From NCBI GenBank assembly GCA_030829955.1, contig JAURNY010000024.1, forward strand, positions 1-64,000: DNA of 64,000 nucleotides, in the 5' to 3' direction. Below the pieces are notes generated by a model, which was not told where the DNA came from, made no database searches, and saw nothing but the letters and a program-made list of their open reading frames with translations. Positions within the stretch are counted from its first letter, which is position 1. Each line of letters opens with the position of its first letter. Shown here one piece after another: positions 1 to 17,309 of this stretch. Origin of the DNA: Gammaproteobacteria bacterium (GTDB taxonomy: Bacteria > Pseudomonadota > Gammaproteobacteria > Eutrophobiales > Eutrophobiaceae). A program made the translations under genes and the position numbers.

Positions 1-217
1 CTGTGGCAATAATCTCACCCGCACCATCTGACAAAGGTATGACAGGACACATTTCATTTCTGGGGTAACCACCCAAAGGTATCAATAGATCACGATAGTT
101 CAATGAACAGGCTTTCATTCTTACCAGTATTTCATCTGCTGCCAGTTCTGGTTTTTCTATTTCTATTTGTTTTATGTCTTTAAATCCATCGCTACTCTGT
201 ACTTGATATGCTTTCAT
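1..217 (-). CDS. MDR-family zinc-type alcohol dehydrogenase / quinone reductase (N-terminal part)
   Basis: The gene begins at the ATG whose complement is at 215-217 and runs off the left edge, so only about 72 N-terminal residues are visible. They show the GroES-like fold start of medium-chain dehydrogenases: a beta strand, then EILVRMKACSLNYRDLL and a VIPLSDGAGEI segment. The NYRDLL form, rather than a Cys zinc ligand, points to the quinone-reductase-like branch. A sigma-54 promoter and an upstream activator palindrome lie before it, so it probably belongs to the AcoR regulon and oxidises or reduces an alcohol or carbonyl linked to acetoin metabolism. The substrate is not determinable. The family is fairly sure. 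Confidence 0.75.
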   Translation of the reverse strand, partial: MKAYQVQSSDGFKDIKQIEIEKPELAADEILVRMKACSLNYRDLLIPLGGYPRNEMCPVIPLSDGAGEIIAT

Positions 218-259: not shown

Positions 260-275
260 CGCAATATCGATGCCA
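260..275 (-). promoter_or_regulatory. Sigma-54 (-24/-12) promoter for the MDR dehydrogenase
   Basis: Read on the minus strand the site is TGGCATC-GATA-TTGCG. The GG and GC doublets start 12 bp apart, as the RpoN consensus TGGCAY-N5-TTGC requires. It lies about 43 bp before the MDR gene start and about 115 bp downstream (in the direction of transcription) of the palindrome at 390-405, a normal activator-promoter distance. Confidence 0.75.
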
Positions 276-389
276 AGGAACCAAATGATGATGTCAACCG
301 GGTAGCGAGTAATTGCTTAGTGTTTTCAGCCACTTAACAATCGGCTTCATGAAGTAGATTTTTGAAGAAAATAAATAAACGAGATGAGA

Positions 390-405
390 TGTTACATCTG
401 TAACA
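390..405. promoter_or_regulatory. Candidate AcoR upstream activator site
   Basis: TGTTACATCTGTAACA is an inverted repeat with 6-bp arms (TGTTAC / GTAACA) and a 4-bp centre. A 13-of-16 match occurs at 5039-5054 before acoX, also upstream of a sigma-54 promoter. The linked activator gene makes AcoR the likely ligand (inference). Confidence 0.6.
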
Positions 406-428
406 GATAAAAATTAAATATATATTAT

Positions 429-2435
429 TTATAATTGATTAGGGGGAACGATGTTATACCGTTTCATTCTTCTGTAAATAGTCGCTCTGGAGATACCTAG
501 ATCATTAGCGGTATCAGTAATGTTCCATTTATTATGCTTTAATGAAACAATCAGTTTTTCTTCAATAGATTTTGCGTTGCAGTTCGTTATTGAGTCGGGG
601 GTATTGTCAGAATACGAAGCATGCCGACTTGTTTCCTGATGATTATCTATTTTATTAAAAAATTGTTCAGGGATATCGTCCATGGTAATCGTTTGGGTAT
701 TACTTAAAGCCAATGCCACCTTGAGTATGTTTTTAAGTTCGCGAATATTGCCCGGCCAGCTATAAGACTTAAGTAATTCGAGAACTTCGTTTTCAATACT
801 AATATCAGGATTGCTACTTTCGGAAACAAGAATATTTTTAATGATAAAATCTTTATCTTGTCTAGCTCTAAATGGAGGCAGTGTTAATGTGGTGCCAGCG
901 AGCCTGAAATACAGATCCTCTCTAAAGCGTTTTTCGTTAATCATGCTCTCAATGCAACGATGAGATGCTGAGATGACATTTAGATCCACAGAAATGGGAG
1001 CATTAGATCCCAAAGGCAAGACTTCCTGCTCAGAGATAACGCGCAATAATCTGGTTTGCAGATCGAGTGGCATGTCACCAATTTCATCAAGGAACAGCGT
1101 ACCACCGCTGGATTGCTGAATCAGGCCCTGACTACCTTTGCTTTTGGCACCGGTAAAACTGCCAGGCTTGTAACCAAATAGTTCGCTTTCAATCAACGAT
1201 TCCGGAATAGCTGCACAGTTGACGGCAATGAATGGAGCTTTAGAACGATTGCTTTCGCGATGCATTGCCTTGGCAAAAAGTTCTTTACCGCAGCCGGTTT
1301 CTCCCTGTATCAGGAAATTAATTCTACTGTTCAACAATTTTCTGGCCAATCTTATCGACTTGTCCATCTTTGTATCTTTGCCAGCCAAAGAACCCAGAGG
1401 CATCATCTGATGCTGGCTAACTACACTTGGTCTATCTTTATTGTTTCTGCCAGTGACGAATAAAGATTTTATGTTATGTGGTGCATAACTGTGGAAATAA
1501 AATTGTTGATTTGTAGATTTCAGTTTTACAGGACTGGTCTTAGTAAGCGAAGTCGCATTGGCAAAAATATCATCTAGTTTGCAATCAAAATATTTGGTTA
1601 TATGTTTACCCATGGCTTCATCCCAGCTTTCATCTTGCCAGTGAGTATTGCCATTTAAAAATGTTCGTGCTGATGCATTAATACCTGTGATTTCCCCTGT
1701 TTCGTTAATGGCAATCATATGAGGAGCACTAACCTCTACATACTGTTTGCTCTCGCCAAAGCGTATTACCCAGTTTTCATGTTTGAAATAATGTAAAAAA
1801 TTGGCACTTTCAATTATGTGTGCATATAGCTCGACCATTTGTAGAAGTATATATTGACTGTCTTTTTTCTCAGGTGACTTCAGCGAAGAGACATCAAGTA
1901 CTGCCAATGGTTTACCAAATGGGTCAAATATAGGCGCTGCGGAACAGGTTAAAGTTGTATTGGCAATATCAAAATGGTCTGTTCGATGAGCTATGACAGG
2001 TTTCATTTCGGTAGCACACACACCAACCGCGCAGGTGCCGGCGCGCGTTTCATTCCAATCTGATCCCATATAAAGACCGCTTTTTCTTAATTCTTTGTCA
2101 AAGCGATCATTACCCAGATAGTCAATGGTAATTCCATGCTTATCCGTTAATAACACTACGTAATCGAGTGCTGAAACATGCTTATGAAGTTCATGTAAAC
2201 CCGATTTGGCTATAGATATAAATTCTTCTATCGGTGTCTTATGGTCCAATAATTCCTGATTACTCAGTACTCTTGCTGTACGGGTTGGACTTGGTTCCAA
2301 GTGAAAATGGGAAACGCAGCGTTTCCAAGAGCGGAGGATGATAGGATCTACATTACTAATAATGCCATCAACCTTTTCAGGTCGATAAACAGAATTCATA
2401 ATTACATCTATATGGTTCATGCTTCTACTTGACAT
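429..2435 (-). CDS. acoR: Sigma-54-dependent activator of acetoin catabolism, AcoR type
   Basis: This enhancer-binding protein has an N-terminal GAF-type sensor region (about residues 60-220, with AGTCAVGVCATEMKPV), a central AAA+ ATPase with Walker A GETGCGK near residue 378, and a C-terminal Fis-type helix-turn-helix (about 630-665). The sigma-54 contact loop reads GSFTGA instead of the common GAFTGA. I prefer the ATG at 2435 because the GGAGGAGG ribosome site then has about 6 bp spacing; the ATG at 2441 is only 0-3 bp away. Length matches AcoR proteins. The adjacent aco operon and three -24/-12 promoters support the assignment. The inducer is presumably acetoin or a related compound. Confidence 0.88.
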   Translation of the reverse strand: MSSRSMNHIDVIMNSVYRPEKVDGIISNVDPIILRSWKRCVSHFHLEPSPTRTARVLSNQELLDHKTPIEEFISIAKSGLHELHKHVSALDYVVLLTDKHGITIDYLGNDRFDKELRKSGLYMGSDWNETRAGTCAVGVCATEMKPVIAHRTDHFDIANTTLTCSAAPIFDPFGKPLAVLDVSSLKSPEKKDSQYILLQMVELYAHIIESANFLHYFKHENWVIRFGESKQYVEVSAPHMIAINETGEITGINASARTFLNGNTHWQDESWDEAMGKHITKYFDCKLDDIFANATSLTKTSPVKLKSTNQQFYFHSYAPHNIKSLFVTGRNNKDRPSVVSQHQMMPLGSLAGKDTKMDKSIRLARKLLNSRINFLIQGETGCGKELFAKAMHRESNRSKAPFIAVNCAAIPESLIESELFGYKPGSFTGAKSKGSQGLIQQSSGGTLFLDEIGDMPLDLQTRLLRVISEQEVLPLGSNAPISVDLNVISASHRCIESMINEKRFREDLYFRLAGTTLTLPPFRARQDKDFIIKNILVSESSNPDISIENEVLELLKSYSWPGNIRELKNILKVALALSNTQTITMDDIPEQFFNKIDNHQETSRHASYSDNTPDSITNCNAKSIEEKLIVSLKHNKWNITDTANDLGISRATIYRRMKRYNIVPPNQL

Positions 2436-2822
2436 GAACATCCTCCTCCAAATTACTTAAATTACCAGCTTTATTGTAATTTTAATGTGCAATAGCGAAT
2501 AACTCACTATTTGCTGGTATATTGTGTTAGACAATCTTTATGAAGTGATGATATCCCGATAAAAATCACTTCTGCAACACTTGAAGCATAATTATAAGCA
2601 ACAAATGTATCAATAATTTATATTAATAATTTTAAATTACTTATTTATCATACGGTTACATGCTGGCATGTTGATTGCAAATAGATTTTTGCAATTAATT
2701 TAATTTTTAATTCAGTAGATTACTTTTTAATATTTTTTTAAATCAAATCTTCGTTTTATTCATTAATTAATTATAAAAATAATTTAAACTTAAATTCTCT
2801 AGAGTATGTAGTAGGAGGAGTA
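2436..2822. other. Divergent intergenic region between acoR and the PQQ dehydrogenase
   Basis: About 390 bp, very AT-rich. It holds the acoR ribosome binding site, an imperfect inverted repeat (AGCGAAT at 2496-2502 against ATTTGCT at 2508-2514), the sigma-54 promoter at 2664-2679 and a leader of about 130 nt ending in an AGGAGGAG ribosome site next to the ATG at 2823. I could not find a clear copy of the TGTTAC...GTAACA activator site here; only a half site GTTACAT overlaps the promoter. Confidence 0.5.
2664..2679 (+). promoter_or_regulatory. Sigma-54 (-24/-12) promoter for the first PQQ dehydrogenase
   Basis: TGGCATG-TTGA-TTGCA is a perfect RpoN-type site with the correct 12-bp phase between GG and GC. 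Transcription would start near 2690 and give a leader of about 130 nt. Confidence 0.8.
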
Positions 2823-4496
2823 ATGATTAATCTTAAAGATTTTTCTATATCGAAAATAAGCGCAGCTTTGCTTTCGATTTCTATGCTCGGCATGTCGGTA
2901 ACGGCAAACGCTGAAGATAACCCGGCTGACTGGCCTAAGTACCATCGTCTGGATAACGGTTGGCGTTACAGCCCACTGGACCAAGTTAACAAGAAGAATG
3001 TTGCTGGTTTGAAAGTTGCATGGATTCACCATGTTGGTGATATTGCTAATGGCATGCAGGCAACACCAATCGTTCTCGACGGTGTAGTTTACAGCATCGG
3101 TCCAAACAATAATGTGTTTGCTATCGATGGCAACAGTGGTGATACCATCTGGCACTATCAGCCAGAACTCGATCCAATTGTTAACGAAGTTTTCTATACC
3201 AATGCTAGTCGTGGTGTAACTGTTGGTCACGGCAATGTTTATGTGGGTACACTGGATGGACGTTTTATCGCGTTAGATCAAAAAAGTGGTGAAGTAGTTT
3301 GGGAAAACCAAATTATTACTACCCAACGTGAAGACTACGGCATTCTGTTCTCATCTCCACCACAGCTTTGTGACGGTATCCTTTACAGCGGTACCACCGG
3401 TGGTGACCAACCTCAGATTGGTCGAGTATTCGCAGCTGACGCTATTACAGGTGCGACTGCATGGGTCTGGGAAACCTTGGAAGATTCTAAAAAATCTTGG
3501 CCAGGTGACTCAAGAGCCGTTGGTGGCGGTGGTGCTTGGTTGCCAGGTCAGTGTGACGATGCAACCGGTACTATCTACATTGGTACCAGTAACGCAGCGC
3601 CTGACTTTTATAAAGGCGGTCGTGAAGGCGATAACAAATGGTCTGCTAGTTACGTTGCACTGGAAGCTAAATCAGGTACGGTTAAATTCGCTCATCAGGA
3701 AATGCCAAATGACCTTTGGGACTATGACTCATCTTATGAAGGCGTTTTCTTCACCAGAAATGGTAAGGAATACATCGCGCATTTGAACAAAGGTGGTTTC
3801 GTTTTTGTATACAACAAGAAAGACTTATCTATTGCTAATGTTTGGCAATTTGCTGAACATGTAAATTTTGTTGATTCAATCGATCCTAAAACTGGTGAGC
3901 TGATTGGTCGTGTTGACCCAGTTGCTGGTCAGGAAAGTACCTTTTGTCCTTACCTGCTTGGCGCACGTAGCTGGAACCATGGTGCTTACAACCCAGATAC
4001 AGGTCTTTGGTACATGAATGCACAGGAAGCATGTAACACTGTTACTTCAGCTCCTACCGATCCTGATTCATTAGGTAGTCCTGCAGCATTAACCTTAGGT
4101 ATATCTGCGATTGCAGCTCATGCACCTCCAGGAACAGTTGCAGCTACTGCAAGACTGGACGCGCGTGATCCGTTCACTGGTAAACCTTCATGGTCATTGT
4201 CATACAAATTGCCAGGTTACGGCAGCGTATTAACAACCAAAGGTGGTCTCGTATTTAACGGTGATCCAACCGGTCAGGTTATGGCTTATGACGCTGACAA
4301 TGGTAAAACTCTATGGAAGTTCAACACCGGTTCTGGAATTCGTGGTGGTATCGTGAGCTATGCAGCTAATGGTAAACAATACATCCTTGTTCCAAGTGGC
4401 TGGGGTTCATTAGCTCCTGGTTTTGCTGCTGCAGCATATCCAGGTATCGATAAACAACCTGGTGGTGCTACACTGGTTGCTTTCGAGTTGCCATAA
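2823..4496 (+). CDS. PQQ-dependent alcohol dehydrogenase, exported, without the vicinal cysteine pair
   Basis: A signal peptide ending near SVTANA precedes an eight-bladed quinoprotein beta-propeller (557 aa). PQQ/metal-site residues include Asn257 in GTSNAAPDF and the catalytic Asp300 in LWDYD; Asp302 two residues on is the extra metal ligand typical of lanthanide-type enzymes. At the usual Glu metal ligand the sequence has Asp195 (TGGDQ). The vicinal Cys-Cys pair over PQQ is replaced by Phe124-Tyr125 (VFYTNASRG). It would oxidise an alcohol (2,3-butanediol is one guess) in the periplasm and pass electrons to the cytochrome c that follows. The sigma-54 promoter links it to AcoR. Family sure, substrate unknown. 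Confidence 0.88.
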   Translation: MINLKDFSISKISAALLSISMLGMSVTANAEDNPADWPKYHRLDNGWRYSPLDQVNKKNVAGLKVAWIHHVGDIANGMQATPIVLDGVVYSIGPNNNVFAIDGNSGDTIWHYQPELDPIVNEVFYTNASRGVTVGHGNVYVGTLDGRFIALDQKSGEVVWENQIITTQREDYGILFSSPPQLCDGILYSGTTGGDQPQIGRVFAADAITGATAWVWETLEDSKKSWPGDSRAVGGGGAWLPGQCDDATGTIYIGTSNAAPDFYKGGREGDNKWSASYVALEAKSGTVKFAHQEMPNDLWDYDSSYEGVFFTRNGKEYIAHLNKGGFVFVYNKKDLSIANVWQFAEHVNFVDSIDPKTGELIGRVDPVAGQESTFCPYLLGARSWNHGAYNPDTGLWYMNAQEACNTVTSAPTDPDSLGSPAALTLGISAIAAHAPPGTVAATARLDARDPFTGKPSWSLSYKLPGYGSVLTTKGGLVFNGDPTGQVMAYDADNGKTLWKFNTGSGIRGGIVSYAANGKQYILVPSGWGSLAPGFAAAAYPGIDKQPGGATLVAFELP

Positions 4497-4520
4497 GGGA
4501 AAATTCCCTTTAATAAATGC

Positions 4521-4550
4521 AAAAGGGAGGCTTATGCCTCCCTTTTGTTA
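4521..4550 (+). terminator. Rho-independent terminator after the PQQ dehydrogenase
   Basis: AAAAGGGAGGC pairs with GCCTCCCTTTT across a TTAT loop, followed by T-rich sequence. A smaller hairpin (AAGGGA / TCCCTT) precedes it just after the stop codon. It would limit read-through into the cytochrome gene. Confidence 0.85.
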
Positions 4551-4633
4551 TATATGGTTTTAATGAACAAAATCATGATTTTTATATCTAATTTAAATAA
4601 TTCAAATTAATTTAGAACGGTAATTAAAAAAAA

Positions 4634-4999
4634 ATGAAATTAACCTATTTATTACTTTTATCTGCTTTATTTTTCTCATCATCTTTTGCGATTGCTAACG
4701 ATAGTAAAACAGAAGGTTCTGTGGACAGTGAAAAAATATTAGCCGATCCTGAATCTATTGTAATTGGTAAAGCCAAATTTAGTTCTCTATGTGCCTATTG
4801 TCATGGGCCAGAAGGTAGTGGGGGTAAAGCACGTAAACTGCAGGGTCGTGACGACTTAACATCAGATTATGTTTTTACTACCATAACAAACGGAAAAAAG
4901 CGTGGCTCTTACAATATGCCGCCATGGAAAAGTTTACCGGAAGACTTACGTTGGAAATTAACAGCTTACATTTTACATCTCTCAGAAAAAGGCAGGTAA
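4634..4999 (+). CDS. Small periplasmic cytochrome c, electron acceptor of the PQQ dehydrogenase
   Basis: A 121-residue class I c-type cytochrome. The signal peptide ends near SFAIA; the single heme site is CAYCH and the likely axial methionine lies in NMPPW. It sits directly after a quinoprotein dehydrogenase, the usual place for its electron acceptor, but behind a strong terminator, so its level is probably set separately. The stop codon lies inside the loop of its own terminator hairpin. Confidence 0.85.
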   Translation: MKLTYLLLLSALFFSSSFAIANDSKTEGSVDSEKILADPESIVIGKAKFSSLCAYCHGPEGSGGKARKLQGRDDLTSDYVFTTITNGKKRGSYNMPPWKSLPEDLRWKLTAYILHLSEKGR

Positions 5000-5011
5000 A
5001 ACTGCCTTTTT
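4986..5011 (+). terminator. Terminator overlapping the cytochrome stop codon
   Basis: AAAAAGGCAG and CTGCCTTTTT form a 10-bp stem; the TAA stop (4997-4999) is in the loop. Confidence 0.8.
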
Positions 5012-5038
5012 CATTTCTATTCTGTGCTTTTTCTTGTG

Positions 5039-5072
5039 CGTTACATGTGAAACAGGTGTTACACCTGAAGCT
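5039..5072. promoter_or_regulatory. Two candidate AcoR sites upstream of acoX
   Basis: CGTTACATGTGAAACA (5039-5054) matches the palindrome at 390-405 in 13 of 16 positions. TGTTACACCTGAAGCT (5057-5072) matches it in 12 of 16. They are 18 bp apart and about 150-185 bp upstream of the -24/-12 promoter, the geometry of a tandem enhancer. Confidence 0.6.
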
Positions 5073-5223
5073 GCAGTGAATTATTAACTAAAATAATCGT
5101 ATTTTGTAATTCACAATAAAGTTAATATTGTTATATTAATTTTTCTATAATTATCAAAACATTAGCTATTTTTTTATTATTTACAGTTGTTAGTGCGCAT
5201 TAATTTTTTTGAGTCGGATTCTT

Positions 5224-5239
5224 TGGCATTTCTATTGCT
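5224..5239 (+). promoter_or_regulatory. Sigma-54 (-24/-12) promoter of the acoXABC operon
   Basis: TGGCATT-TCTA-TTGCT fits the RpoN consensus with correct spacing. It lies about 50 bp before acoX. Confidence 0.8.
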
Positions 5240-5290: not shown

Positions 5291-6403
5291 ATGCGAACAT
5301 CAAATAAAAACAAATCTATTGGTATTGTTGCCAATCCTTATTCGTCTAGAGATATACGTAGACTGATATCCAGTGCGACCTCTATTCAGACGGTAGAAAG
5401 GGCAAATATCGTTGAGCGGATTATCGTTTCTGTGGCTAATTTTGGTCTGGATCGGGTTTACATGATGCCAGATAAAGGTGGCATTTCTTCTCATTTGCTC
5501 AGGAATCTCAAAACCCAACAACGCCTAAAAGATGTTGATTTGCCTGAAATAGAATTTCTCGATATCCCTATTACCAGTACTGCAGAAGATTCAGAAAATG
5601 CGGCAAAACTACTGTTTGAAAAAAGCGTTGATGCTGTATTGATACTTGGTGGTGATGGTACACATAGGGTGGTTGCCAAGGAAATAGGCGATATTCCCAT
5701 GGCGAGTATCTCTACCGGAACAAACAACGCTTTTCCAAGATTTTATGAAGCAACTTTGATTGGTATGGCGATAGGCTTGTATATAAATGGGATTGTACCA
5801 GCAGAGGAAATTTTACATAAAAATAAAACAATACATGTGCGACTAAATGATGATGTAGATGAAATTGCATTGGTTGATGTTGCTATTACCAATGACCAGT
5901 GGGTTGGTGCCAGAGCATTGTGGCAAATGGAAAATCTCAAAGAATTGTATCTTACTTTTTGTGAACCATCAGCGATTGGCATGTCTTCAATCGGTGGTTT
6001 ATTAAAGCCTGTTTCACGGTCGCAACAGAATGGATTGAAAGTTATTACTGCTGCACCTGATAACTGTGAACAAAGCGTTAATTGCCCTATTGCTCCTGGA
6101 TTGTTTGAAGAAGTCGGAATAGTGTCTTCAGATATTCTGGAGGTGGATGAGCCATGTAAAATTGAAACGCAATATGGCGTTATCGCATTTGATGGAGAGC
6201 GCGAAATCGAATTTAAAAAACAAGATGATGTAGTCATCGAGCTAAAGAATGACGGACCTGTAACCATTGATATTAATAAGGCTATCGAAATTGCGGTTAA
6301 ACAGGGTTCGTTCGTGAAAAAAAAAGATAAATTTTTAAATCAAGAAAATACTGATGTTGTTTATAAGGGAAGTAAAACAAACGAAAAAGTGGTTTCTGTT
6401 TAA
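5291..6403 (+). CDS. acoX: AcoX, NAD-kinase-like protein of acetoin catabolism
   Basis: 370 residues with the NAD-kinase/diacylglycerol-kinase signature GGDGT at 120-124 and the family's nucleotide-binding SISTGTNNAFP segment near 140. AcoX proteins stand first in acetoin dehydrogenase operons of several bacteria; their biochemical role is unsettled and not essential for the E1/E2 reaction. The ribosome site (GCTGGGA) is weak. The gene is preceded by a sigma-54 promoter and followed after 49 bp by acoA. The C-terminal 40 residues are Lys-rich and probably unstructured. Confidence 0.85.
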   Translation: MRTSNKNKSIGIVANPYSSRDIRRLISSATSIQTVERANIVERIIVSVANFGLDRVYMMPDKGGISSHLLRNLKTQQRLKDVDLPEIEFLDIPITSTAEDSENAAKLLFEKSVDAVLILGGDGTHRVVAKEIGDIPMASISTGTNNAFPRFYEATLIGMAIGLYINGIVPAEEILHKNKTIHVRLNDDVDEIALVDVAITNDQWVGARALWQMENLKELYLTFCEPSAIGMSSIGGLLKPVSRSQQNGLKVITAAPDNCEQSVNCPIAPGLFEEVGIVSSDILEVDEPCKIETQYGVIAFDGEREIEFKKQDDVVIELKNDGPVTIDINKAIEIAVKQGSFVKKKDKFLNQENTDVVYKGSKTNEKVVSV

Positions 6404-6452: not shown

Positions 6453-7424
6453 ATGTCTGAGTTAAGCAAAAATCAATTACTTGATGCATATCGCATGATG
6501 CGAACGATTCGTGATTTTGAAGTTCGCGTACATGATGAGTTTGCAAAAGGTGGTATACCGGGGTTTGTACATTTGTATGCCGGTGAAGAAGCATCTGCTA
6601 CAGGTATCTGTATGCATTTAAATGATGAAGACCGTATTGCCAGTACGCATCGCGGACATGGTCATTGTATTGCTAAGGGTGTAGATGTCATGGGTATGAT
6701 GGCAGAAATTTATGGCAAAGAAACAGGCACGTGTAAAGGTAAAGGCGGTTCAATGCATATTGCTGACCTAGATAGAGGCATGTTAGGTGCTAATGGTATC
6801 GTTGGTGGTGGTCCTCCATTAATTTGTGGTGTAGGCCTAGCACATAAAATGCGCGGTACCGACGGTGTTGGTATAGCTTTCTTTGGTGATGGCGCGTCCA
6901 ACCAAGGCACAACGCTCGAAGCTATGAACTTGGCCACAGTATGGAACTTGCCATGCATTTTTGTTGTTGAAAACAACGGTTATGCTGAAACGACCTCCTC
7001 GGAATGGTCTGTGTCTTGTGACAGCTATGCAGACCGTGCAGCAGGTTTTGGTATGCCTGGTACTACCTGTGATGGTCATGACTTTTTCGCAGTCTATGAA
7101 ACTGCCGGTGAAGCAATAAAAAGAGCGCGTTCTGGTGGTGGCCCTTCTTTTATTGAAGTGAAACTTAACCGTTACTATGGACACTTTGAAGGTGATTCGC
7201 AGACATATCGTGGTGACAATGAAGTAGAAAAAATCAAGGCCGAAAAAGATTGTCTGATGTTATTCAGAAAACGTGTGACAGAAGCAAATCTGCTTGATGC
7301 GTCTGAAATGGATGCAATCGATAAAGAAGTTGCAGAACTTATCGATGAGTCAGTTAAGAAAGCAGAGGCGGCGGCAGAACCATCTGTCGATACGCTCCTT
7401 ACCGATGTCTATGTTTCATATTAA
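6453..7424 (+). CDS. acoA: Acetoin:DCPIP oxidoreductase E1 alpha subunit (TPP-dependent)
   Basis: 323 residues, the usual AcoA length. The thiamine-diphosphate motif is complete: GDG at 145-147 and the closing NN at 174-175 (VVENNGY). AcoA with AcoB cleaves acetoin, releasing acetaldehyde and passing an acetyl group to the lipoyl arm of AcoC. A GGGGAGG ribosome site lies before the ATG. It is the second gene of acoXABC, 22 bp before acoB. Confusion with pyruvate or branched-chain 2-oxoacid dehydrogenase E1 is possible on sequence alone, but acoX and the AcoC layout argue for acetoin. Confidence 0.88.
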   Translation: MSELSKNQLLDAYRMMRTIRDFEVRVHDEFAKGGIPGFVHLYAGEEASATGICMHLNDEDRIASTHRGHGHCIAKGVDVMGMMAEIYGKETGTCKGKGGSMHIADLDRGMLGANGIVGGGPPLICGVGLAHKMRGTDGVGIAFFGDGASNQGTTLEAMNLATVWNLPCIFVVENNGYAETTSSEWSVSCDSYADRAAGFGMPGTTCDGHDFFAVYETAGEAIKRARSGGGPSFIEVKLNRYYGHFEGDSQTYRGDNEVEKIKAEKDCLMLFRKRVTEANLLDASEMDAIDKEVAELIDESVKKAEAAAEPSVDTLLTDVYVSY

Positions 7425-7446: not shown

Positions 7447-8451
7447 ATGGCTAGAAAAATTACATATCAACAAGCAGTGAATGAAGCGCTTGATCAGGAA
7501 ATGGCACGCGATCCATCCGTTATTGTTATGGGTGAAGACGTAGTTGGTGGTCAAGGTAGTCCGGGTGAAATGGATGCCTGGGGCGGTGTACTTGGTGTGA
7601 CCAAAGGTCTTTATGCTAAACATGGCGACCGCATTATGGATACACCAATTACAGAATCAGGTTACATTGGTGCGGCTGTTGGTGCTGCAACCTGTGGCAT
7701 GCGTCCAGTTGCCGAATTGATGTTTATCGATTTTATGGGTGTCTGTCTTGATCAGATCTTTAATCAGGCTGGTAAGTTCAAATACATGTTTGGCGGTAAG
7801 GCTGAAACACCTGTGGTTATCCGTGCAATGTACGGTGCAGGGTTTAGAGCTGCAGCCCAGCACTCTCAATGTTTGTATTCAGTCTTTACACATTTTCCCG
7901 GTATTAAAGTAGTACTGCCATCAACCCCTTATGATGTTAAAGGTTTATTGATTCAGTCTATCCGTGATAACGACCCGGTAATGTTCCTTGAGCATAAAAT
8001 GCTTTATACGCTGGAAGGCGAGGTGCCTGAAGAACCTTATACCATTCCTTTTGGCGAAGCGAACCTGGTTCGTGAAGGCGGCGATGTCACAATCGTAGGT
8101 TTTGGACGTATGGTGCATCTCGCAGCTGAAGTTGCTGACAAGTTAGCAAAAGAAGGAATTAGTTGTGATGTCATCGATCCTAGAACGACTTCTCCACTTG
8201 ATGAAGAAACCATTCTGGAAAGTATTGAAAATACTGGTCGATTGGTAGTGGTTGATGAATCAAACCCACGTTGCAGCATGGCGAGTGATATTGCTGAGCT
8301 GGCTGCAACTAAAGCCTTCAGTAGTCTTAAAGCTGCTATTCAAACTGTTACTGCACCTCATGTGCCGACGCCATTTGCTGCATCGCTTGAAGATGCCTAT
8401 ATCCCGTCTGTAGATCAAATTGAAGCGGCAGTTAGAAAGGTTCTTAAATAA
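7447..8451 (+). CDS. acoB: Acetoin:DCPIP oxidoreductase E1 beta subunit
   Basis: 334 residues of the transketolase central and C-terminal domains typical of E1 beta subunits: an N-terminal VIVMGEDV segment, MFIDFMG and FRAAAQHSQ in the core, and a C-terminal swivel domain with VVVDES. It pairs with AcoA to form the alpha2beta2 thiamine enzyme. An AGAAGGA ribosome site precedes the ATG; it lies 22 bp after acoA and 35 bp before acoC in the same operon. Confidence 0.88.
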   Translation: MARKITYQQAVNEALDQEMARDPSVIVMGEDVVGGQGSPGEMDAWGGVLGVTKGLYAKHGDRIMDTPITESGYIGAAVGAATCGMRPVAELMFIDFMGVCLDQIFNQAGKFKYMFGGKAETPVVIRAMYGAGFRAAAQHSQCLYSVFTHFPGIKVVLPSTPYDVKGLLIQSIRDNDPVMFLEHKMLYTLEGEVPEEPYTIPFGEANLVREGGDVTIVGFGRMVHLAAEVADKLAKEGISCDVIDPRTTSPLDEETILESIENTGRLVVVDESNPRCSMASDIAELAATKAFSSLKAAIQTVTAPHVPTPFAASLEDAYIPSVDQIEAAVRKVLK

Positions 8452-8486: not shown

Positions 8487-9608
8487 ATGTCAGATAGTAT
8501 TCGAGGGATAACAATGCCGAAATGGGGTTTGTCGATGAAAGAAGGCAAACTACTGGAATGGTCGGTAAATGAAGGTGATGAAATCTCTAAGGGCGATGAA
8601 ATTGCTGATGTAGAAACCGAGAAAATTGCCAGTGCTGTTGAAGCACCAGCTTCCGGCAAATTGAGAAAGATTGTAACTGAAAATGACACGGTTTATCCGG
8701 TTGGTGCATTGTTAGGTGTTATCGCTGATGACAGTGTTTCTGATGATGAAGTAAACGCATATGTGGAAAAATTTCTGGCTGAATTCGTACCACCAGAAGA
8801 TGATGACGAAGAGGAAGTTTCTGCAAGTGAGTTTATAGACATCAACGGACTCAATATTCGCTATGTTTCAAAAGGCGAAGGAGATGACACCATTCTGTTG
8901 ATACATGGTTTTGGTGGCGATCTGGATAACTGGCTGTTTAATCATGATGATCTTGTTGCACGTACAGGCAAAAAAGTCATTGCCCTGGATTTACCAGGGC
9001 ATGGTCAATCTTCGAAGTCTGTCGGTGACGGTAGTCAGGATTTTCTTGCTGATACCGTTATTGCTTTCATGAAAGCTGTCGGTGTAGATAAGGCGCATCT
9101 TGTTGGTCATTCAATGGGTGGTGCTGTTGCTCTAAACATTGCTAGTAAGCAGGCAGATATGGTGAATTCGTTAAGCCTTATCTGTTCTGCAGGTTTAGGT
9201 AAAGAAATCAATCTTGAGTATCTTGATGGTTTCATCAGCAGTGACAGCAGAAAACAGATCAAGCCATTTTTACAACAACTGTTTGCCGATGTTGATCTTG
9301 TGACACGCCAGCTAATCAATAATATGTTGCAGTACAAACGTCTCGATGGTGTGACTGCCGCTCTACAACAAATTAAAGATGGTTTTATTGAAGGTGCTAG
9401 TCAGAAAAAACAGTTTAACGATGTGCTTGGAAGTGTAAGCAAGGCAAGCGTTATCTGGGGTGCAAAAGATCAGATTATTCCTGCCAGCCATAAGGACAAT
9501 ATCAGTGGTGGAAATGTTGAAGTGCTTTCAGTCGCTGATGCTGGACACATGGTGCAGATGGAAGCTGCAAAGGAAGTCAATGAAGCGATTGCGAACACTG
9601 TTGCTTGA
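8487..9608 (+). CDS. acoC: AcoC, lipoyl-domain E2 fused to an alpha/beta hydrolase fold
   Basis: 373 residues. Residues 1-78 form a lipoyl domain with the lipoylated lysine expected at Lys46 (VETEKIA). An acidic Glu/Asp linker follows, then an alpha/beta hydrolase domain (about 110-373) with the nucleophile elbow GHSMGG (Ser209) and a late GH motif (ADAGHMVQM). This lipoyl plus hydrolase architecture is the mark of AcoC, unlike the catalytic domain of other E2s. It takes the acetyl group from E1 and makes acetyl-CoA. No dihydrolipoamide dehydrogenase gene follows, so E3 must come from elsewhere in the genome. Confidence 0.9.
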   Translation: MSDSIRGITMPKWGLSMKEGKLLEWSVNEGDEISKGDEIADVETEKIASAVEAPASGKLRKIVTENDTVYPVGALLGVIADDSVSDDEVNAYVEKFLAEFVPPEDDDEEEVSASEFIDINGLNIRYVSKGEGDDTILLIHGFGGDLDNWLFNHDDLVARTGKKVIALDLPGHGQSSKSVGDGSQDFLADTVIAFMKAVGVDKAHLVGHSMGGAVALNIASKQADMVNSLSLICSAGLGKEINLEYLDGFISSDSRKQIKPFLQQLFADVDLVTRQLINNMLQYKRLDGVTAALQQIKDGFIEGASQKKQFNDVLGSVSKASVIWGAKDQIIPASHKDNISGGNVEVLSVADAGHMVQMEAAKEVNEAIANTVA

Positions 9609-9956: not shown

Positions 9957-11675
9957 ATGTTCAATAATTATAAAATTATTAAAGCATTTTATGTCGCAGT
10001 TCTCTCGCTACTTTTATCTAGCCAGGCTTTTGCTCTGGGTGTAGATGAACTGGCGGGTAGACATATCGGTTATATGGTGACTGATGACATGCTTGCTAAT
10101 GCGGACAAGGACCCGAATAACTGGCTTCATTATGGTCGCGACCTAGAGCAAACTCGTTATTCACCGCTGTCACAAATTAACAAGAATAATATTGGCGACC
10201 TGGTACCAAAGTGGAATCTGTCATTTGGTGTGACTGGCGCACAAGTCAGTCAGGTGATGGCTGTTCATGGCCGTCTTTATGTTACTTCCAGTGAAAACAA
10301 GTTATTTGTTCTGGATGGCAACACCGGCGATATTATCTGGAAGTATGAGCATGCTTTACCGGGTGACATCGGACCGAAGCTTTGCTGTAGCTCGATTAAC
10401 CGTGGCGTTGCCTTGTATAAGGACAAGGTTTTCATGGCGACATTGGATACACATATGCTGGCGTTTGATGCAGCTACCGGTGAGATCGTCTGGAAAAAGA
10501 AATTGGGTGACTACAAGACTGGTCAAATCCTGACATCCATGCCAACGATTATCGAAGGTATGGTGACCATCGGTAACGCTGGTGGTGACCTTGGTGCAAA
10601 CGCAGGTACCTTCTGGGCATTAAATCCTGATAACGGCGAAGAAATATGGAAAACCCATACGGTACCAATGAGTGCCAAAGACCCGATAGCTAAGACCTGG
10701 GCTGGTGACTCCTGGAAGTTGGCTGGTGGTACACCATGGTTACCTGCTTCTTATGATAAGGAAACCGGATACATCCTGCTTGGTGTAGGTAACCCTGTAC
10801 CTGACTTTGACGGTTCTGTTCGCGAAGGTGACAACCTGTATACTGGTTCCACCGTTGCGATTGATGTTAAGACCGGCAAGATCAAGGGTCACTTTCAATA
10901 TACTCCACATGATGTTTGGGATTATGACGGCACCAACGAAGCTATCGTAATCACTGATAAGAAAGGTCGTAAGGTCTGGGTCCATGCGGATCGTAATGGT
11001 CACTTATACAGTATTGATCGTGAAAAATTTACCTGTAACTGGGTAAAAGCGATGCAACGTGTTAACTGGGTAAGCAGTTTTGGTAAAAACTGTCGTCCAA
11101 ATCCAAATCCTGAAAAAACTCCTACTCGTGGCAAGGAAACGATCGATATCGCTCCTACACTCGGTGGTGGTAAGGAATGGCATCCAGCGTCATACAGTAA
11201 ACGTACCGGTTATATCTATGTGCCTGGTATCGATATGGCTATGGACCTCGCTGCTAAGGAACAGGAATTCAAACCAGGACAGTGGTGGCTGGGTACCAGC
11301 GTAATTCGTCTGCATCCGGGTGCTGGATATTTAAAAGCATTTGATGCGACATCAGGCGATTTGGTCTGGATGCGTTCACAAAGCACTCCTAATACCAGTG
11401 GTGTGTTATCCACGGGTGGCGGACTTGTATTCAATGGCGATGCAGAAGGTTTCTTCCGTGCTGTTGATGACGAATCAGGCGAAACCCTGTGGGAATACAA
11501 CGTTGGCTCTGGTGTACATAGCAACCCGACTACCTTCATGGTTGGTGACACTCAATATGTTGCCATTCTTGTAGGTCCTGGTGGTGGTAGCTTATGGCCA
11601 TTGGTTTATGGAGAATTTTTCAAAACCAATAACCAAGGTGGCGCACTTTACGTTTTCGCACTACATAATAAATAA
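9957..11675 (+). CDS. PQQ-dependent alcohol dehydrogenase with vicinal disulfide and Asp-x-Asp metal site
   Basis: 572 residues with a signal peptide ending near SSQAFA and the full quinoprotein propeller. The vicinal Cys143-Cys144 (KLCCSSINRG) is present, as in methanol/ethanol dehydrogenases. Metal and PQQ residues: Asp211 at the usual Glu position (AGGDLG), Asn279 (GVGNPVPDF), catalytic Asp322 in VWDYDGTNE and the lanthanide-type extra Asp324. The DRNGHLYSID segment is the usual blade closing sequence. It oxidises an alcohol in the periplasm and probably feeds the cytochrome c that follows. A GGGG ribosome site precedes the ATG. Methanol, ethanol or longer alcohols cannot be told apart by eye. 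Confidence 0.9.
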   Translation: MFNNYKIIKAFYVAVLSLLLSSQAFALGVDELAGRHIGYMVTDDMLANADKDPNNWLHYGRDLEQTRYSPLSQINKNNIGDLVPKWNLSFGVTGAQVSQVMAVHGRLYVTSSENKLFVLDGNTGDIIWKYEHALPGDIGPKLCCSSINRGVALYKDKVFMATLDTHMLAFDAATGEIVWKKKLGDYKTGQILTSMPTIIEGMVTIGNAGGDLGANAGTFWALNPDNGEEIWKTHTVPMSAKDPIAKTWAGDSWKLAGGTPWLPASYDKETGYILLGVGNPVPDFDGSVREGDNLYTGSTVAIDVKTGKIKGHFQYTPHDVWDYDGTNEAIVITDKKGRKVWVHADRNGHLYSIDREKFTCNWVKAMQRVNWVSSFGKNCRPNPNPEKTPTRGKETIDIAPTLGGGKEWHPASYSKRTGYIYVPGIDMAMDLAAKEQEFKPGQWWLGTSVIRLHPGAGYLKAFDATSGDLVWMRSQSTPNTSGVLSTGGGLVFNGDAEGFFRAVDDESGETLWEYNVGSGVHSNPTTFMVGDTQYVAILVGPGGGSLWPLVYGEFFKTNNQGGALYVFALHNK

Positions 11676-11708
11676 GGTAGTAAGTTAACGTTAGTTCTCT
11701 ATAAAAGG

Positions 11709-11740
11709 AAAAAGGGGGGGGGGAACTCCCCCTTTTTTTT
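11709..11740 (+). terminator. Terminator with a ten-G tract
   Basis: The G run at 11714-11723 pairs with CTCCCCC before a run of eight T. The uninterrupted G10 is prone to slippage. Confidence 0.8.
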
Positions 11741-11779
11741 GATTAAATAATAGAGATAGGTAAATTTGAGGTTGAAGAA

Positions 11780-12253
11780 ATGAAGTACTGGAAAATTATT
11801 TTTGTTTTTAGTCTGATAAATGCATTTTCAATAACCAAGTTGTCTGCTTTTGGAGTTGATGCTGCGGCAGCTGAAAATGTAAATGTAGTTGTAGCAGAAA
11901 ACAGTTCTGCCAATGACGAAAGTGTAAATAGCACAGCTGCATCTTCTGGAACAGATATGGAAGCCCAACACATTGGCAATGCTGAATCTATTGAAGCAGG
12001 TCGGCAAACGTATGGTAATACCTGCCTGTTTTGTCATGGCCCAAAAGGCAAGGGCGCAAGAGCACCGACGCTAGTTGAAGGTGGTTTTGTACCAGGTGGT
12101 GTAAAAAGTAATGAGTACTTCTTTAGCACAGTGAAATATGGTAAGCCTGGCACGATCATGGGATCGTTTGAAGGCACGCTGACTGAAACACAAATGTGGC
12201 AGGTGATTGCTTATTTACGTGACCAAGCAAAACAGGTAGCTGCAAACAAGTAA
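11780..12253 (+). CDS. Periplasmic cytochrome c, partner of the second PQQ dehydrogenase
   Basis: 157 residues. The signal peptide is followed by an Ala/Asn/Ser-rich spacer of about 50 residues and then one class I cytochrome c domain: CLFCH heme site, PKGKGARAPTL and the likely axial methionine in GTIMGSF. It follows the dehydrogenase gene by about 100 bp, past the terminator, and precedes the hydrolase gene by 26 bp. Role as electron acceptor is inferred from position. Confidence 0.83.
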   Translation: MKYWKIIFVFSLINAFSITKLSAFGVDAAAAENVNVVVAENSSANDESVNSTAASSGTDMEAQHIGNAESIEAGRQTYGNTCLFCHGPKGKGARAPTLVEGGFVPGGVKSNEYFFSTVKYGKPGTIMGSFEGTLTETQMWQVIAYLRDQAKQVAANK

Positions 12254-12279
12254 CTAAATCATTCATTAAACTATACCTG

Positions 12280-13299
12280 TTGAGACAATTTAAAAACAAT
12301 CTCATTGCACTATTGTTTTTAGCTCTCGGAGTTTGTTCGAATCTATCCTGGAGTGCTGGCACTATTGCCTATAACGAAACTCTGGATGGATTCAAATATC
12401 CATTTGCTGTTGACTACTATAAGTTTGAAAGTTTTGGTCAAGACTTAAAAATGGCTTATATGCATGTTAGAAGTCCTATGACTGAAACTAGCTCCAGCAA
12501 GCCAACAGCTGTCTTGTTGCATGGTAAAAACTTCTCAGGATTTTACTGGGAAGAGGTTGCGCATTCATTGCAGGACTGGGGTTATGATGTCTTGATTCCT
12601 GATCAGATTGGTTTTGGTAAATCCAGCAAACCTGTTAATTTTCAATATTCATTTAGACAATTCGCGCGTCTGACTCATGAATTGCTTAAATCAAAAGGTA
12701 TAGATAAATTCATTGTTATTGGTCATTCCATGGGTGGAATGTTAGCGATAGAAATGGCTTACCTGTTTCCCAAAGAAGTACAAAATCTTGTTCTGGTTAA
12801 TCCAATCGGTCTTGAAGATTACGGCTATTATTCAGCGCCAAAGCCATATGAGTTTTTTCTGAATTATGAAAGAAAAAAAACCATAGAAGATATTATCGCT
12901 TATCAGAAGAAAAATTATTACGCCGGTCAGTGGGAAGAAAAGTATGAGGCATTAACCAGAATTCATGAGGGTTGGTTAAATGGTCCGGACGCTGAAAAAA
13001 TTCAGACGGTTAATGCGCTGACTTACAATATGATTTTTTCAGAACCAGCAATATTAAAGGTGCCGGAACTGCAAACAAACATCTCTTTGATTTTAGGCAC
13101 GCGTGATCGTACTGGTCCCGGGCGTGGTTGGCGCAGTAATGAACTCGACTATGAGCTTGGTCGTTATGATAAATTAGGTAATCATATTAAACAGAAAAAT
13201 AAAAAAGTAAGACTGTTTGAATTGAATGAACTCGGACATTTGCCACAGATTGAAGACTACAGCCGATTTGAATCTGTCTTGAAAAAATCACTTCAATAG
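12280..13299 (+). CDS. Exported alpha/beta hydrolase
   Basis: 339 residues with a hydrophobic N-terminus ending near LSWSAG, so probably periplasmic. The nucleophile elbow is GHSMGG (Ser150) and the catalytic His is in ELGHLPQ (about 320). The start is a TTG at 12280 without a strong ribosome site; no in-frame ATG gives the signal peptide. An HGKNFSGFYWEEVA segment forms the oxyanion-hole region. It is close to dehalogenase/epoxide-hydrolase/esterase relatives, and its substrate is unknown. Position after the PQQ dehydrogenase and cytochrome suggests a hydrolytic step feeding or clearing alcohols. Confidence 0.75.
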   Translation: MRQFKNNLIALLFLALGVCSNLSWSAGTIAYNETLDGFKYPFAVDYYKFESFGQDLKMAYMHVRSPMTETSSSKPTAVLLHGKNFSGFYWEEVAHSLQDWGYDVLIPDQIGFGKSSKPVNFQYSFRQFARLTHELLKSKGIDKFIVIGHSMGGMLAIEMAYLFPKEVQNLVLVNPIGLEDYGYYSAPKPYEFFLNYERKKTIEDIIAYQKKNYYAGQWEEKYEALTRIHEGWLNGPDAEKIQTVNALTYNMIFSEPAILKVPELQTNISLILGTRDRTGPGRGWRSNELDYELGRYDKLGNHIKQKNKKVRLFELNELGHLPQIEDYSRFESVLKKSLQ

Positions 13300-13392
13300 T
13301 GGGTGTTAAATGAGTTTTAAATCCTCAAATAGAGTTACCGAAATTTCTGATAGATATGGATTCTTTTTTTTGTTTGATCTGGGGAATCGTTG

Positions 13393-14325
13393 ATGGCTTA
13401 TGAAGACCTTGGGCAAGGAGTGTATCATATCGATACACAATATATTCGGCCGGGTATGGCGAGTCTGTATTGTGTTGTTCACAATGATGAAGTAGCTATC
13501 ATTGAAACCGGAACTGCCTATTCTCTTCAATATGTAGAAGCATTTTTAAATGAACTGTCGCTTACTGTAGAACAGGTTAAGTATGTCATTCCGACACATG
13601 TGCATCTGGATCATGCAGGAGGGGCGGGTATCATGATGCATAATTTTCCTGTAGCACAATTGGTTATTCATCCGCGCGGTGCTCGCCATATGATCGATCC
13701 GAAAAAACTAGTGGCCGCTGCAGAGGCGGTGTATGGAGAAGAGACTTTCAGGAATTTATATGGGGAAATACTGCCTATTGATTCATCACGAGTGATAAGT
13801 GCAGAACATGAAACTTCTATCAAACTGAATGACCGTGAATTTATTATTGTAGATACACCCGGGCATGCCTATCACCACTTTTGCGTGGTTGATGAATTTA
13901 GCAAAGGTATATTCACCGGCGACACTTTTGGACTTTCTTATCCCGATATATTATTTCGCAATCAACGTTTCATTATCCCAACCTCAACACCCACACAATT
14001 CAATCCTGATGCATTACACCAATCGATTGATTTATTGATGTCGTATCAACCAACACAAATGTATCTGACGCATTTTAATCGTTTGTCGGATCCTGCTTCA
14101 TTAGTTGATCAGCATCATGAGTGGATCGATAAATTTGTTGGCTTAGCCGAAGAGATTCAACCAAAGGATGATGACGGTTTAACAAAAATGAAACGGGGTA
14201 TGGGAGAGATGTTGCAAGAGAGTTTCGACTTAAGTGATGAAATTATATCGGGACAACTTGCTATGGATATTGATTTAAATTCGAAGGGTTTGGTGTATTG
14301 GTATCAAACTCGAGATGTAAACTGA
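13393..14325 (+). CDS. MBL-fold metallohydrolase
   Basis: 310 residues of the metallo-beta-lactamase fold, cytoplasmic. The metal motif THVHLDHAGG (about residues 67-76) is intact, with later ligands in DTPGHAYHH and FTGDTFG. I use the ATG at 13393 with the CTGGGGA ribosome site rather than the TTG just before it. Many relatives hydrolyse thioesters or lactones. Lying between a hydrolase and a symporter gene, it probably serves the same catabolic unit, but no substrate can be given. Confidence 0.75.
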   Translation: MAYEDLGQGVYHIDTQYIRPGMASLYCVVHNDEVAIIETGTAYSLQYVEAFLNELSLTVEQVKYVIPTHVHLDHAGGAGIMMHNFPVAQLVIHPRGARHMIDPKKLVAAAEAVYGEETFRNLYGEILPIDSSRVISAEHETSIKLNDREFIIVDTPGHAYHHFCVVDEFSKGIFTGDTFGLSYPDILFRNQRFIIPTSTPTQFNPDALHQSIDLLMSYQPTQMYLTHFNRLSDPASLVDQHHEWIDKFVGLAEEIQPKDDDGLTKMKRGMGEMLQESFDLSDEIISGQLAMDIDLNSKGLVYWYQTRDVN

Positions 14326-14496
14326 GGTGCCGAAGAAACCCGTAATTTATTAAATAAATGTAAATCAAGGATTCGATATTACCTTTATTGGTTAGACGCA
14401 CCCAGTACTATACAATATTTCACTACCTAGTCGCTTTACAACAAGAATTATATGCAAAAAGCAGACATTGTCTGTACTACAATAGGGGGTATACTA

Positions 14497-14751
14497 ATGA
14501 CTACAAAGGCTCAGGATTACTGGAAAGCTAATCTAAGATTGGTGTTAGGATGCATGATTATATGGTTCATTGTATCTTTTGGCTGTGGCATTTTGTTTGT
14601 TGATGAACTTAATCAGATTCGAGTTGGTGGTTATAAGCTTGGCTTCTGGTTTGCTCAACAAGGCTCAATCTATACATTTCTAGTACTCATTTTCTTCTAT
14701 GGATGGCGCATGAATCTTCTCGATAGAAAGTTCGATGTGCATGAAGACTAA
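14497..14751 (+). CDS. Small subunit of a sodium/solute symporter (DUF4212)
   Basis: 84 residues with two transmembrane helices (about 14-36 and 50-72) and the family pattern YWKANLRLVL ... FWFAQQGSIYTFL. The ATG at 14497 follows an AGGGGG ribosome site; an upstream ATG at 14452 would add an unrelated tail. It is 13 bp before the large subunit gene, the standard pairing of this transporter type. Confidence 0.88.
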   Translation: MTTKAQDYWKANLRLVLGCMIIWFIVSFGCGILFVDELNQIRVGGYKLGFWFAQQGSIYTFLVLIFFYGWRMNLLDRKFDVHED

Positions 14752-14764
14752 AAAATAGGAGAAC

Positions 14765-16549: not shown

Positions 16550-16586
16550 TATGTTTACAATGCTCTAATTTAACGAGGCAATAATT

Positions 16587-17222
16587 ATGTACAGTTTCAA
16601 TCGTCGCCGGTTTGTAAAGGCATCGATAGTTAGCAGCTTTCTGGCGTTGTTTTCGAAAGATAGCTTGGCTGGAACGGTCACTCCACCGGAAATTGAGGGA
16701 CCGTTTTATCCTCTTACACCACAGAAAGATATGGACTTTGACTTAACTTCTGTGATTGGCAGAGAGGGGACAGCACAAGGTCAGGTCGTATTTATAGAAG
16801 GTCAGGTTGTCGATCAAAATTCAAACCCTGTTGAAGATGCAACAGTTGATATCTGGCAGGCAAATGCAGCTGGTCGTTATCGACATCCACATGACACAAA
16901 CCCTGCGCCTCTTGATCCGGATTTTCAGGGTTGGGCGATTGTGCAAAGTGGTAAGCAAGGCAAGTTTAAATTTAAAACGATAGTGCCTGGCGCGTACCCA
17001 GTAAACAAGGATTGGACTCGTCCACCACATATCCATTTTAAAGTGTCGAAACGTGGGTACTCGGAGTTGACGACTCAAATGTATTTTCCGGCGAATGAAC
17101 TAAATAGTACTGATATTTTGCTGCAGGCAAAATCGAAGAACGAACAGCAACTGATGATTGCCAGAACGGTTTCAGAAAGTCCATTTACTCTTGAATACAT
17201 AATTACATTGGGTTCGGCATAA
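16587..17222 (+). CDS. Tat-exported intradiol ring-cleavage dioxygenase-like protein
   Basis: 211 residues. The N-terminus FNRRRFVKASIVSSF is a Tat-type signal. The dioxygenase beta-sandwich carries the iron-ligand motifs: Tyr in GRYRHPHD, Tyr in VPGAYP and the two His in PPHIHFKV. It resembles protocatechuate 3,4-dioxygenase-like secreted proteins, whose substrates are often unknown. No aromatic pathway genes accompany it. It lies 37 bp after the symporter gene. Confidence 0.8.
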   Translation: MYSFNRRRFVKASIVSSFLALFSKDSLAGTVTPPEIEGPFYPLTPQKDMDFDLTSVIGREGTAQGQVVFIEGQVVDQNSNPVEDATVDIWQANAAGRYRHPHDTNPAPLDPDFQGWAIVQSGKQGKFKFKTIVPGAYPVNKDWTRPPHIHFKVSKRGYSELTTQMYFPANELNSTDILLQAKSKNEQQLMIARTVSESPFTLEYIITLGSA

Positions 17223-17309
17223 ATACGTTTTAAGTATTCAATACATTTTATTGCACAGCATTGTCTAGTAACAAAGCGCAATAGAACGAATAGCTAGCGG
17301 AGGAATGTT

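Follow-up and report, generated by a model that had tools for sequence, protein, structure and literature searches.

A predicted AcoR and sigma-54 regulon for acetoin catabolism, with three promoters and a shared operator motif, in a gammaproteobacterial genome

Background

A 64,000-nucleotide stretch of DNA from a gammaproteobacterial draft genome (contig JAURNY010000024.1, positions 1 to 64,000; the window) carries near its start a gene for the sigma-54 activator AcoR set among three sigma-54 promoters. We believe, with considerable confidence, that these belong to an AcoR/sigma-54 regulon for the catabolism of acetoin and probably of its alcohol precursor. The case is built on genes, promoters, operators and their conservation, all of which can be read from sequence. 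The draft genome comes to 1.89 Mb, and the window starts at the first base of its contig (C21). An initial annotation had proposed the three-promoter regulon, and its conservation in relatives and in the aco loci of alpha- and betaproteobacteria supports that proposal well. The regulatory scheme is already known, so this work extends it and does not describe a new kind of system. What is unusual is a periplasmic quinoprotein target that is not normally under AcoR.

Promoters, activator and the acoXABC operon

The main elements are as follows.

260..275, minus strand: sigma-54 -24/-12 promoter TGGCATCGATATTGCG, exact match, facing a gene for an MDR-family dehydrogenase
2664..2679, plus strand: sigma-54 promoter TGGCATGTTGATTGCA, exact match, promoter of pqq1
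5224..5239, plus strand: sigma-54 promoter TGGCATTTCTATTGCT, exact match, promoter of acoXABC
429..2441, minus strand: acoR, sigma-54 enhancer-binding protein with a GSFTGA loop and a Fis-type helix-turn-helix (Pfam Sigma54_activat, HTH_8)
5291..6403, plus strand: acoX, NAD-kinase-like, from a family profile and homologue searches
6453..7424, plus strand: acoA, acetoin dehydrogenase E1 alpha, 84% identical to that of the related genome G009
7447..8451, plus strand: acoB, acetoin dehydrogenase E1 beta, from family profiles, with a homologue in G009
8487..9608, plus strand: acoC, acetoin dehydrogenase E2, NF011457 equivalog (459 bits, cut-off 307)

All three promoters fit TGGCAC/T-N5-TTGC with its invariant GG and GC, and rpoN is encoded in the genome. 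Perfect matches to TGGCAY-N5-TTGC are rare: there are nine in the whole genome, three of them within these 5 kb, and the reversed pattern, taken as a control, has no match genome-wide. The initial annotation was thus right to call the three sites perfect. It had also suggested searching for its motif upstream of other RpoN sites in the genome. We ran this search, and operator-like sites lie upstream of perfect sigma-54 sites only at these three promoters and, in weaker form, at one other locus (L079, described below).

AcoR combines an AAA+ sigma-54 domain carrying a GAFTGA-type loop with a helix-turn-helix, is linked to aco genes and has full-length homology to other AcoR proteins. Its loop reads GSFTGA, as in the AcoR of Azospirillum. 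It is 57% identical to the AcoR of G009 and about 41% identical to the AcoR of the aco loci of Azospirillum, Chelatococcus, Caballeronia and Tistrella. In a tree it falls inside the clade that holds all the aco-linked sequences, within which aco linkage is not monophyletic. The operon encodes E1 alpha, E1 beta, AcoX and an AcoC E2 with a C-terminal alpha/beta hydrolase domain.

Predicted operators in the window

The predicted AcoR operators lie in the three intergenic regions that hold the promoters.

390..405: predicted AcoR operator TGTTACATCTGTAACA, beginning 130 bp upstream of the -24 element (18.4 bits, window rank 2)
2573..2588: predicted AcoR operator TGCAACACTTGAAGCA (12.3 bits, window rank 3)
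2597..2612: predicted AcoR operator AGCAACAAATGTATCA (12.2 bits, window rank 4)
5039..5072: predicted AcoR operator array with half-sites at a 9-bp pitch; best 16-mer TGAAACAGGTGTTACA at 5048-5063 (window rank 1)

The initial annotation had recognized palindromes like TGTTACANNTGTAACA at 390-405, 5039-5054 and 5057-5072. The palindrome at 390-405 is exact, and no other match of this kind in the genome is as good. The two sites before acoX, with 2 and 3 mismatches to TGTTACANNTGTAACA respectively, were placed in the wrong register: the best site is the one between them, 5048-5063, which scores 20.2 bits and lies 176 bp upstream of the -24 element of the acoX promoter. The inventory was also incomplete, as the pair of sites serving the middle promoter (2664) was not listed. 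Counting that motif gives four matches in the window at up to three mismatches where 0.86 are expected, a number reached in 2 of 100 shuffles. Taken alone this count is weak, so independent evidence is needed.

Operator evidence from related genomes

Of 58 genomes searched, only two have a close AcoR: G009 and that of the window. The gene order in G009 is identical: acoR, then PQQ-DH1 (a pyrroloquinoline quinone (PQQ) dehydrogenase encoded by pqq1), cytochrome c, acoX, acoA, acoB and acoC. A third genome, G413, carries PQQ-DH1 through AcoC (pqq1-cyc1-acoXABC) on a short contig. Dyads of the same shape precede pqq1 (TGATACATCTGTATCA and TGCTACAGATGTCTCA) and acoX (TGATACACATGTTGCA and TGAAACAGATGTTTCA) in these two genomes. 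The distance from the pqq1 operator, which in the window is the site at 2597-2612, to the -24 element is 67, 67 and 68 bp in the three genera.

We scanned the whole window with a weight matrix made from the G009 and G413 sites only. Of its 64,000 positions, 5048, 390, 2573 and 2597 score highest, and each falls in one of the three intergenic regions. In random sequence matched for dinucleotide composition, sites scoring at least 12 bits occur at 29.5 per Mb and sites of 18 bits at 1 per Mb; at the former rate, 600 bp of upstream DNA should hold about 0.018 sites. An earlier matrix that included the window sites was circular, and our conclusions rest instead on the matrix from the relatives, on the sites in other aco loci and on an enumeration of dyads.

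Operator evidence from outside the family

We took acoXABC loci from plasmid records of Tistrella, Paracoccus, Caballeronia, Azospirillum, Chelatococcus and Mycetohabitans, most of which have an adjacent AcoR about 41% identical to ours. The matrix from the relatives finds sites in these loci between acoR and acoX, upstream of the sigma-54 element; two Azospirillum species have TGCAACACCTGTTGCA, for example, and Paracoccus versutus has TGCGACAGGTGTTGCA. The core ACA-N2-TGT stands upstream of sigma-54 promoters in the acoXABC loci of Azospirillum, Paracoccus, Caballeronia, Chelatococcus and Tistrella.

The enumeration covered all 832 trinucleotide dyads (64 triplets, spacers of 0 to 12), counted over 200 bp ahead of each of 17 promoters. 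ACA-N2-TGT ranks first, at 13 of the 17 promoters where 0.61 are expected. Without the window it is found at 10 of 14, and in the alpha- and betaproteobacterial loci at 7 of 9 against an expected 0.15. Two of the four misses are the acoX promoters of G009 and G413, where the site lies just past the 200 bp (at 211 and 219). Across 21 loci from the class that hold other AcoR-like genes, the extended pattern [TC]G..ACA..TGT..C[AG] is seen only four times, three of these beside the regulator gene. Because this dyad tops the list and so far exceeds expectation in the alpha- and betaproteobacterial loci, this motif, with the consensus TGNNACANNTGTNNCA, is very likely the operator of AcoR and of its clade. 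The initial proposal that the motif is the operator therefore gains from its conservation in two related genera as well as in these distant aco loci.

A scan of the wider genome contigs for acoX gave only four distant loci of Firmicutes type, one of which (L023) has an aligned AcoR; sigma-54-like sites were seen only in L021 among them, with no core upstream. Scanning the class in the same way added no genome, and the acoABC loci in which acoX was not detected (L101-L106) have no usable sigma-54 promoter upstream.

Two further observations concern AcoR-like systems. At L055:5960 and L056:8212, AcoR homologues of about 43% identity, with GAFTGG in place of GAFTGA, are divergent from a FAD monooxygenase-like gene, and CGTTACAGGTGTAACA and CGTTACACCTGTAACG lie between the genes. 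On three Paracoccus plasmids (L094, L108 and L110) a gene of about 380 codons is divergent from acoX at the usual acoR position. On two of these plasmids its product is annotated as RNA polymerase subunit sigma-54; the protein ends in an RpoN-box-like ARRTVAKYR, which suggests a dedicated second sigma-54 for the aco operon.

The periplasmic quinoprotein branch

2823..4496, plus strand: pqq1, encoding PQQ-DH1, a secreted PQQ-dependent alcohol dehydrogenase-like quinoprotein; DYD kept, vicinal Cys-Cys absent
4525..4549, plus strand: terminator-like hairpin GGGAGGC-TTAT-GCCTCCC with a T run, between pqq1 and cyc1, read from sequence
4634..4999, plus strand: cyc1, cytochrome c (CAYCH), also found in this place in G009 and G413

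There is no doubt about the fold of PQQ-DH1, whose N-terminus resembles a signal peptide. The catalytic Asp, the Asp two residues on (of the lanthanide type) and the metal-site Asn are kept, as WDYD and GTSN, when aligned with the quinoprotein ethanol dehydrogenase 6zcw and the orthologues. The vicinal disulfide is missing: VFYTN stands in its place, and the Cys pair is also absent in G009, G413, G022 and G410. The metal loop has Asp instead of Glu, a trait common to the orthologues. PQQ-DH1 falls below the cut-off of TIGR03075, the methanol/ethanol subfamily (384 vs 480 bits), a cut-off that a second PQQ dehydrogenase in the window (PQQ-DH2) passes with 524 bits; PQQ-DH2 has the vicinal Cys-Cys. 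The genome also encodes PqqE.

The cytochrome c is likely the electron acceptor of PQQ-DH1. Three genera keep the order PQQ dehydrogenase, cytochrome c, acoXABC, and the acoR / pqq1 order is common to the window and G009. A hairpin like that at 4525-4549 also follows pqq1 in G413, and a second terminator-like hairpin follows cyc1 at about 4989-5010. With terminator-like hairpins after both genes, the likeliest reading is that acoXABC is transcribed separately, from 5224.

With the Paracoccus 2,3-butanediol dehydrogenase (232 residues) as the query, the genome gave no homologue at E 1e-10, and no close homologue of NAD-butanediol dehydrogenase turned up in any of the three genera that share pqq1-cyc1-acoXABC. 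Given this absence, the order kept in three genera and the fixed operator distance, PQQ-DH1 is plausibly a periplasmic dehydrogenase of 2,3-butanediol, or a related alcohol, that would feed the acetoin dehydrogenase. The initial annotation had placed this enzyme in acetoin metabolism. Gene order and operator distance in three genera support its membership in the regulon, while its substrate is judged by analogy.

The promoter behind acoR

1..217, minus strand: 5' part of a gene for an MDR-family NAD(P)-dependent alcohol/quinone dehydrogenase (Pfam ADH_N; 72 codons)

The nearest plasmid homologues of the MDR protein are annotated as NAD(P)-dependent alcohol dehydrogenase and are 42-48% identical. 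The protein lacks the catalytic-cysteine motif typical of zinc alcohol dehydrogenases (kacslnyrdl here vs kacgvchtdl). In G009, directly behind acoR (L018:11539-11860), there is a double operator at 11539-11563 and a sigma-54 site at 11695. Downstream of that site comes a thiamine pyrophosphate (TPP) riboswitch (66.9 bits) and then the start of thiC, which continues on another contig. With the MDR gene here and thiC in G009, the promoter position behind acoR is conserved and the gene behind it is not. Either the promoter is a relic of an ancestral acoR-acoX order or it recruits accessory genes.

The claim that the MDR dehydrogenase acts in acetoin metabolism is weak: shared regulation hints at such a link, and against it stand the lost Cys motif and the equivalent promoter that drives thiC in G009. 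Thiamine diphosphate is the cofactor of the E1 enzymes AcoAB, which makes thiC a sensible AcoR target, and it is possible that thiamine synthesis is coupled to acetoin catabolism in G009. The thiC of the window's own genome has neither an operator nor a perfect sigma-54 site.

The proposed regulon and its alternatives

We propose that AcoR, activated by acetoin as the characterized AcoR proteins are, would bind the 16-bp palindromes 67-176 bp upstream of the three sigma-54 promoters and remodel RNA polymerase-sigma-54 there. One promoter would drive PQQ-DH1 and, beyond the terminator-like hairpin, the cytochrome c, a putative periplasmic alcohol oxidation system acting on 2,3-butanediol or a related alcohol, which may replace NAD-butanediol dehydrogenase. 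Another would drive AcoXABC, which would split acetoin into acetaldehyde and acetyl-CoA, and the third the putative MDR oxidoreductase. A bolder version is that AcoR has recruited a divergent periplasmic quinoprotein, lacking the vicinal disulfide and having the lanthanide-type DYD, to stand in for NAD-butanediol dehydrogenase, and that one relative or more has also brought thiamine biosynthesis under AcoR, through a sigma-54 promoter before a TPP-riboswitch thiC, which would supply the cofactor of the acetoin dehydrogenase. We put this forward tentatively, as an idea with the balance somewhat against it.

Several points weigh against our reading of the regulon. The training sites in G009 and G413 were chosen with the window motif known, so the matrix test is not fully blind, although the dyad enumeration is. 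The exact core is missing in Mycetohabitans, whose AcoR is about 37% identical, and in Paracoccus kondratievae, the other two misses of the enumeration. The contig start truncates the MDR gene, leaving its N-terminal 72 residues only. Chance sites of 12-15 bits do occur, for instance inside ftsZ. Such strong-looking sites in coding DNA, like the near-chance count of the initial motif, would suit the idea that the palindromes bind another regulator or are chance and that AcoR binds elsewhere. We consider this very improbable, for several lineages whose AcoR is about 41% identical have the same dyad next to acoR and ahead of sigma-54 promoters, and it is absent near most other AcoR-like genes.

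AcoR could run acoXABC through the motif while the PQQ branch serves another alcohol (ethanol or a C3-C4 alcohol), merely co-induced, with a product other than acetoin; we give this only slightly less than an even chance. PQQ-DH1 homologues of 56-58% identity occur in G022 and G410 with a periplasmic binding protein and no neighbouring aco genes, the G022 copy adjoining a different activator. Membership of the subfamily therefore does not imply a role in acetoin metabolism. Among solved structures the closest are ethanol dehydrogenases of broad substrate range. On the other side, pqq1-cyc1 adjoins acoXABC in three genera at a fixed operator distance, and no NAD-butanediol dehydrogenase was found there that could make the acetoin. 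As for the MDR promoter, it may be what remains of an ancestral acoR-operator-sigma-54-acoX arrangement after acoXABC moved across, the gene now behind it having been captured by chance or selection. An operator and promoter do lie directly behind acoR in the alpha- and betaproteobacterial loci, with acoX following in Azospirillum, Caballeronia and Chelatococcus, and the window and G009 keep both before different genes. The likeness is known from short motifs, however, and the two promoters could be of independent origin, so we regard this history as possible and somewhat doubtful.

Comparison with known systems

In Pseudomonas putida AcoR controls acoXABC-bdhA (PMC10943186), and the AcoR of Cupriavidus necator responds to acetoin, with a promoter that is active in P. 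putida when its cognate regulator gene is absent (PMC7057948). Our system shares with these a sigma-54 activator next to acoXABC, with acetoin as the inducer in the characterized cases (PMC10943186, PMC7057948). It differs in that a PQQ dehydrogenase and cytochrome c replace the usual cytosolic NAD-butanediol dehydrogenase in the regulon, that there are three promoters, and that acoX lies on the far side of acoR. The P. putida quinoproteins PedE and PedH oxidize (2S,3S)-2,3-butanediol (PMC8427195). Like PQQ-DH1 they are PQQ-dependent and periplasmic, and butanediol oxidation there comes ahead of acetoin dehydrogenase (PMC8427195). PQQ-DH1 is a distant relative by PDB alignments, without the vicinal Cys-Cys and with Asp for Glu in the metal loop, and pedE and pedH (PP2674, PP2679) are far from the P. 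putida aco genes (PP0552-PP0557).

The Bacillus AcoR operator is likewise a palindrome for activator binding, ahead of an aco operon that depends on sigma-54, but it is reported to cover about 30 bp and to contain two paired elements (PMC10018347). Some of our best sites resemble those of the NifA/FhlA type, TGT-N10-ACA, in being 16-bp dyads with TGT/ACA ends (TGT-N10/12-ACA: PMC6615313); here the conserved part is the central ACA-N2-TGT and not only the ends. We did not find a consensus for the proteobacterial AcoR operator stated in the literature searched, which did not include the original A. eutrophus and B. subtilis AcoR papers, so an earlier description is possible. The present consensus is testable and holds across classes of Pseudomonadota. 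In the proposal, shared control also ties a periplasmic PQQ dehydrogenase to the catabolism of acetoin. If it is true, acetoin and butanediol regulons could be predicted genome by genome, which would aid the design of acetoin biosensors.

Neighbouring genes and other loci

After acoC, window positions 9957-17822 hold PQQ-DH2, a cytochrome c, an alpha/beta hydrolase, a metallo-beta-lactamase-fold-like protein, a VC_2705-type symporter and a dioxygenase-like gene; no sigma-54 site or operator was found ahead of these genes. The PQQ-DH1 homologues at L052:7865-12151 (G022) and L107:14589-18136 (G410) are accompanied by a cytochrome c and the periplasmic binding protein. These loci appear to be a sister system without aco genes, and the activator adjacent to the G022 copy looks AcoR-like but different.

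A candidate double operator elsewhere in the window's own genome (L003) falls within ftsZ, and we discounted it as a chance match. At L079:1245-1596 (G000, contig C9, near 14545) the operator-like dyad TGAGACACCGGTCACA lies 81 bp upstream of a perfect sigma-54 site, which precedes a gene for a 68-residue putative membrane protein; this may be a further AcoR target or the site of another activator. At L076:36-3014 (G000, contig C4) another sigma-54 activator is divergent from a sulfide-quinone-reductase-like gene that has a perfect sigma-54 site, probably a separate small regulon.

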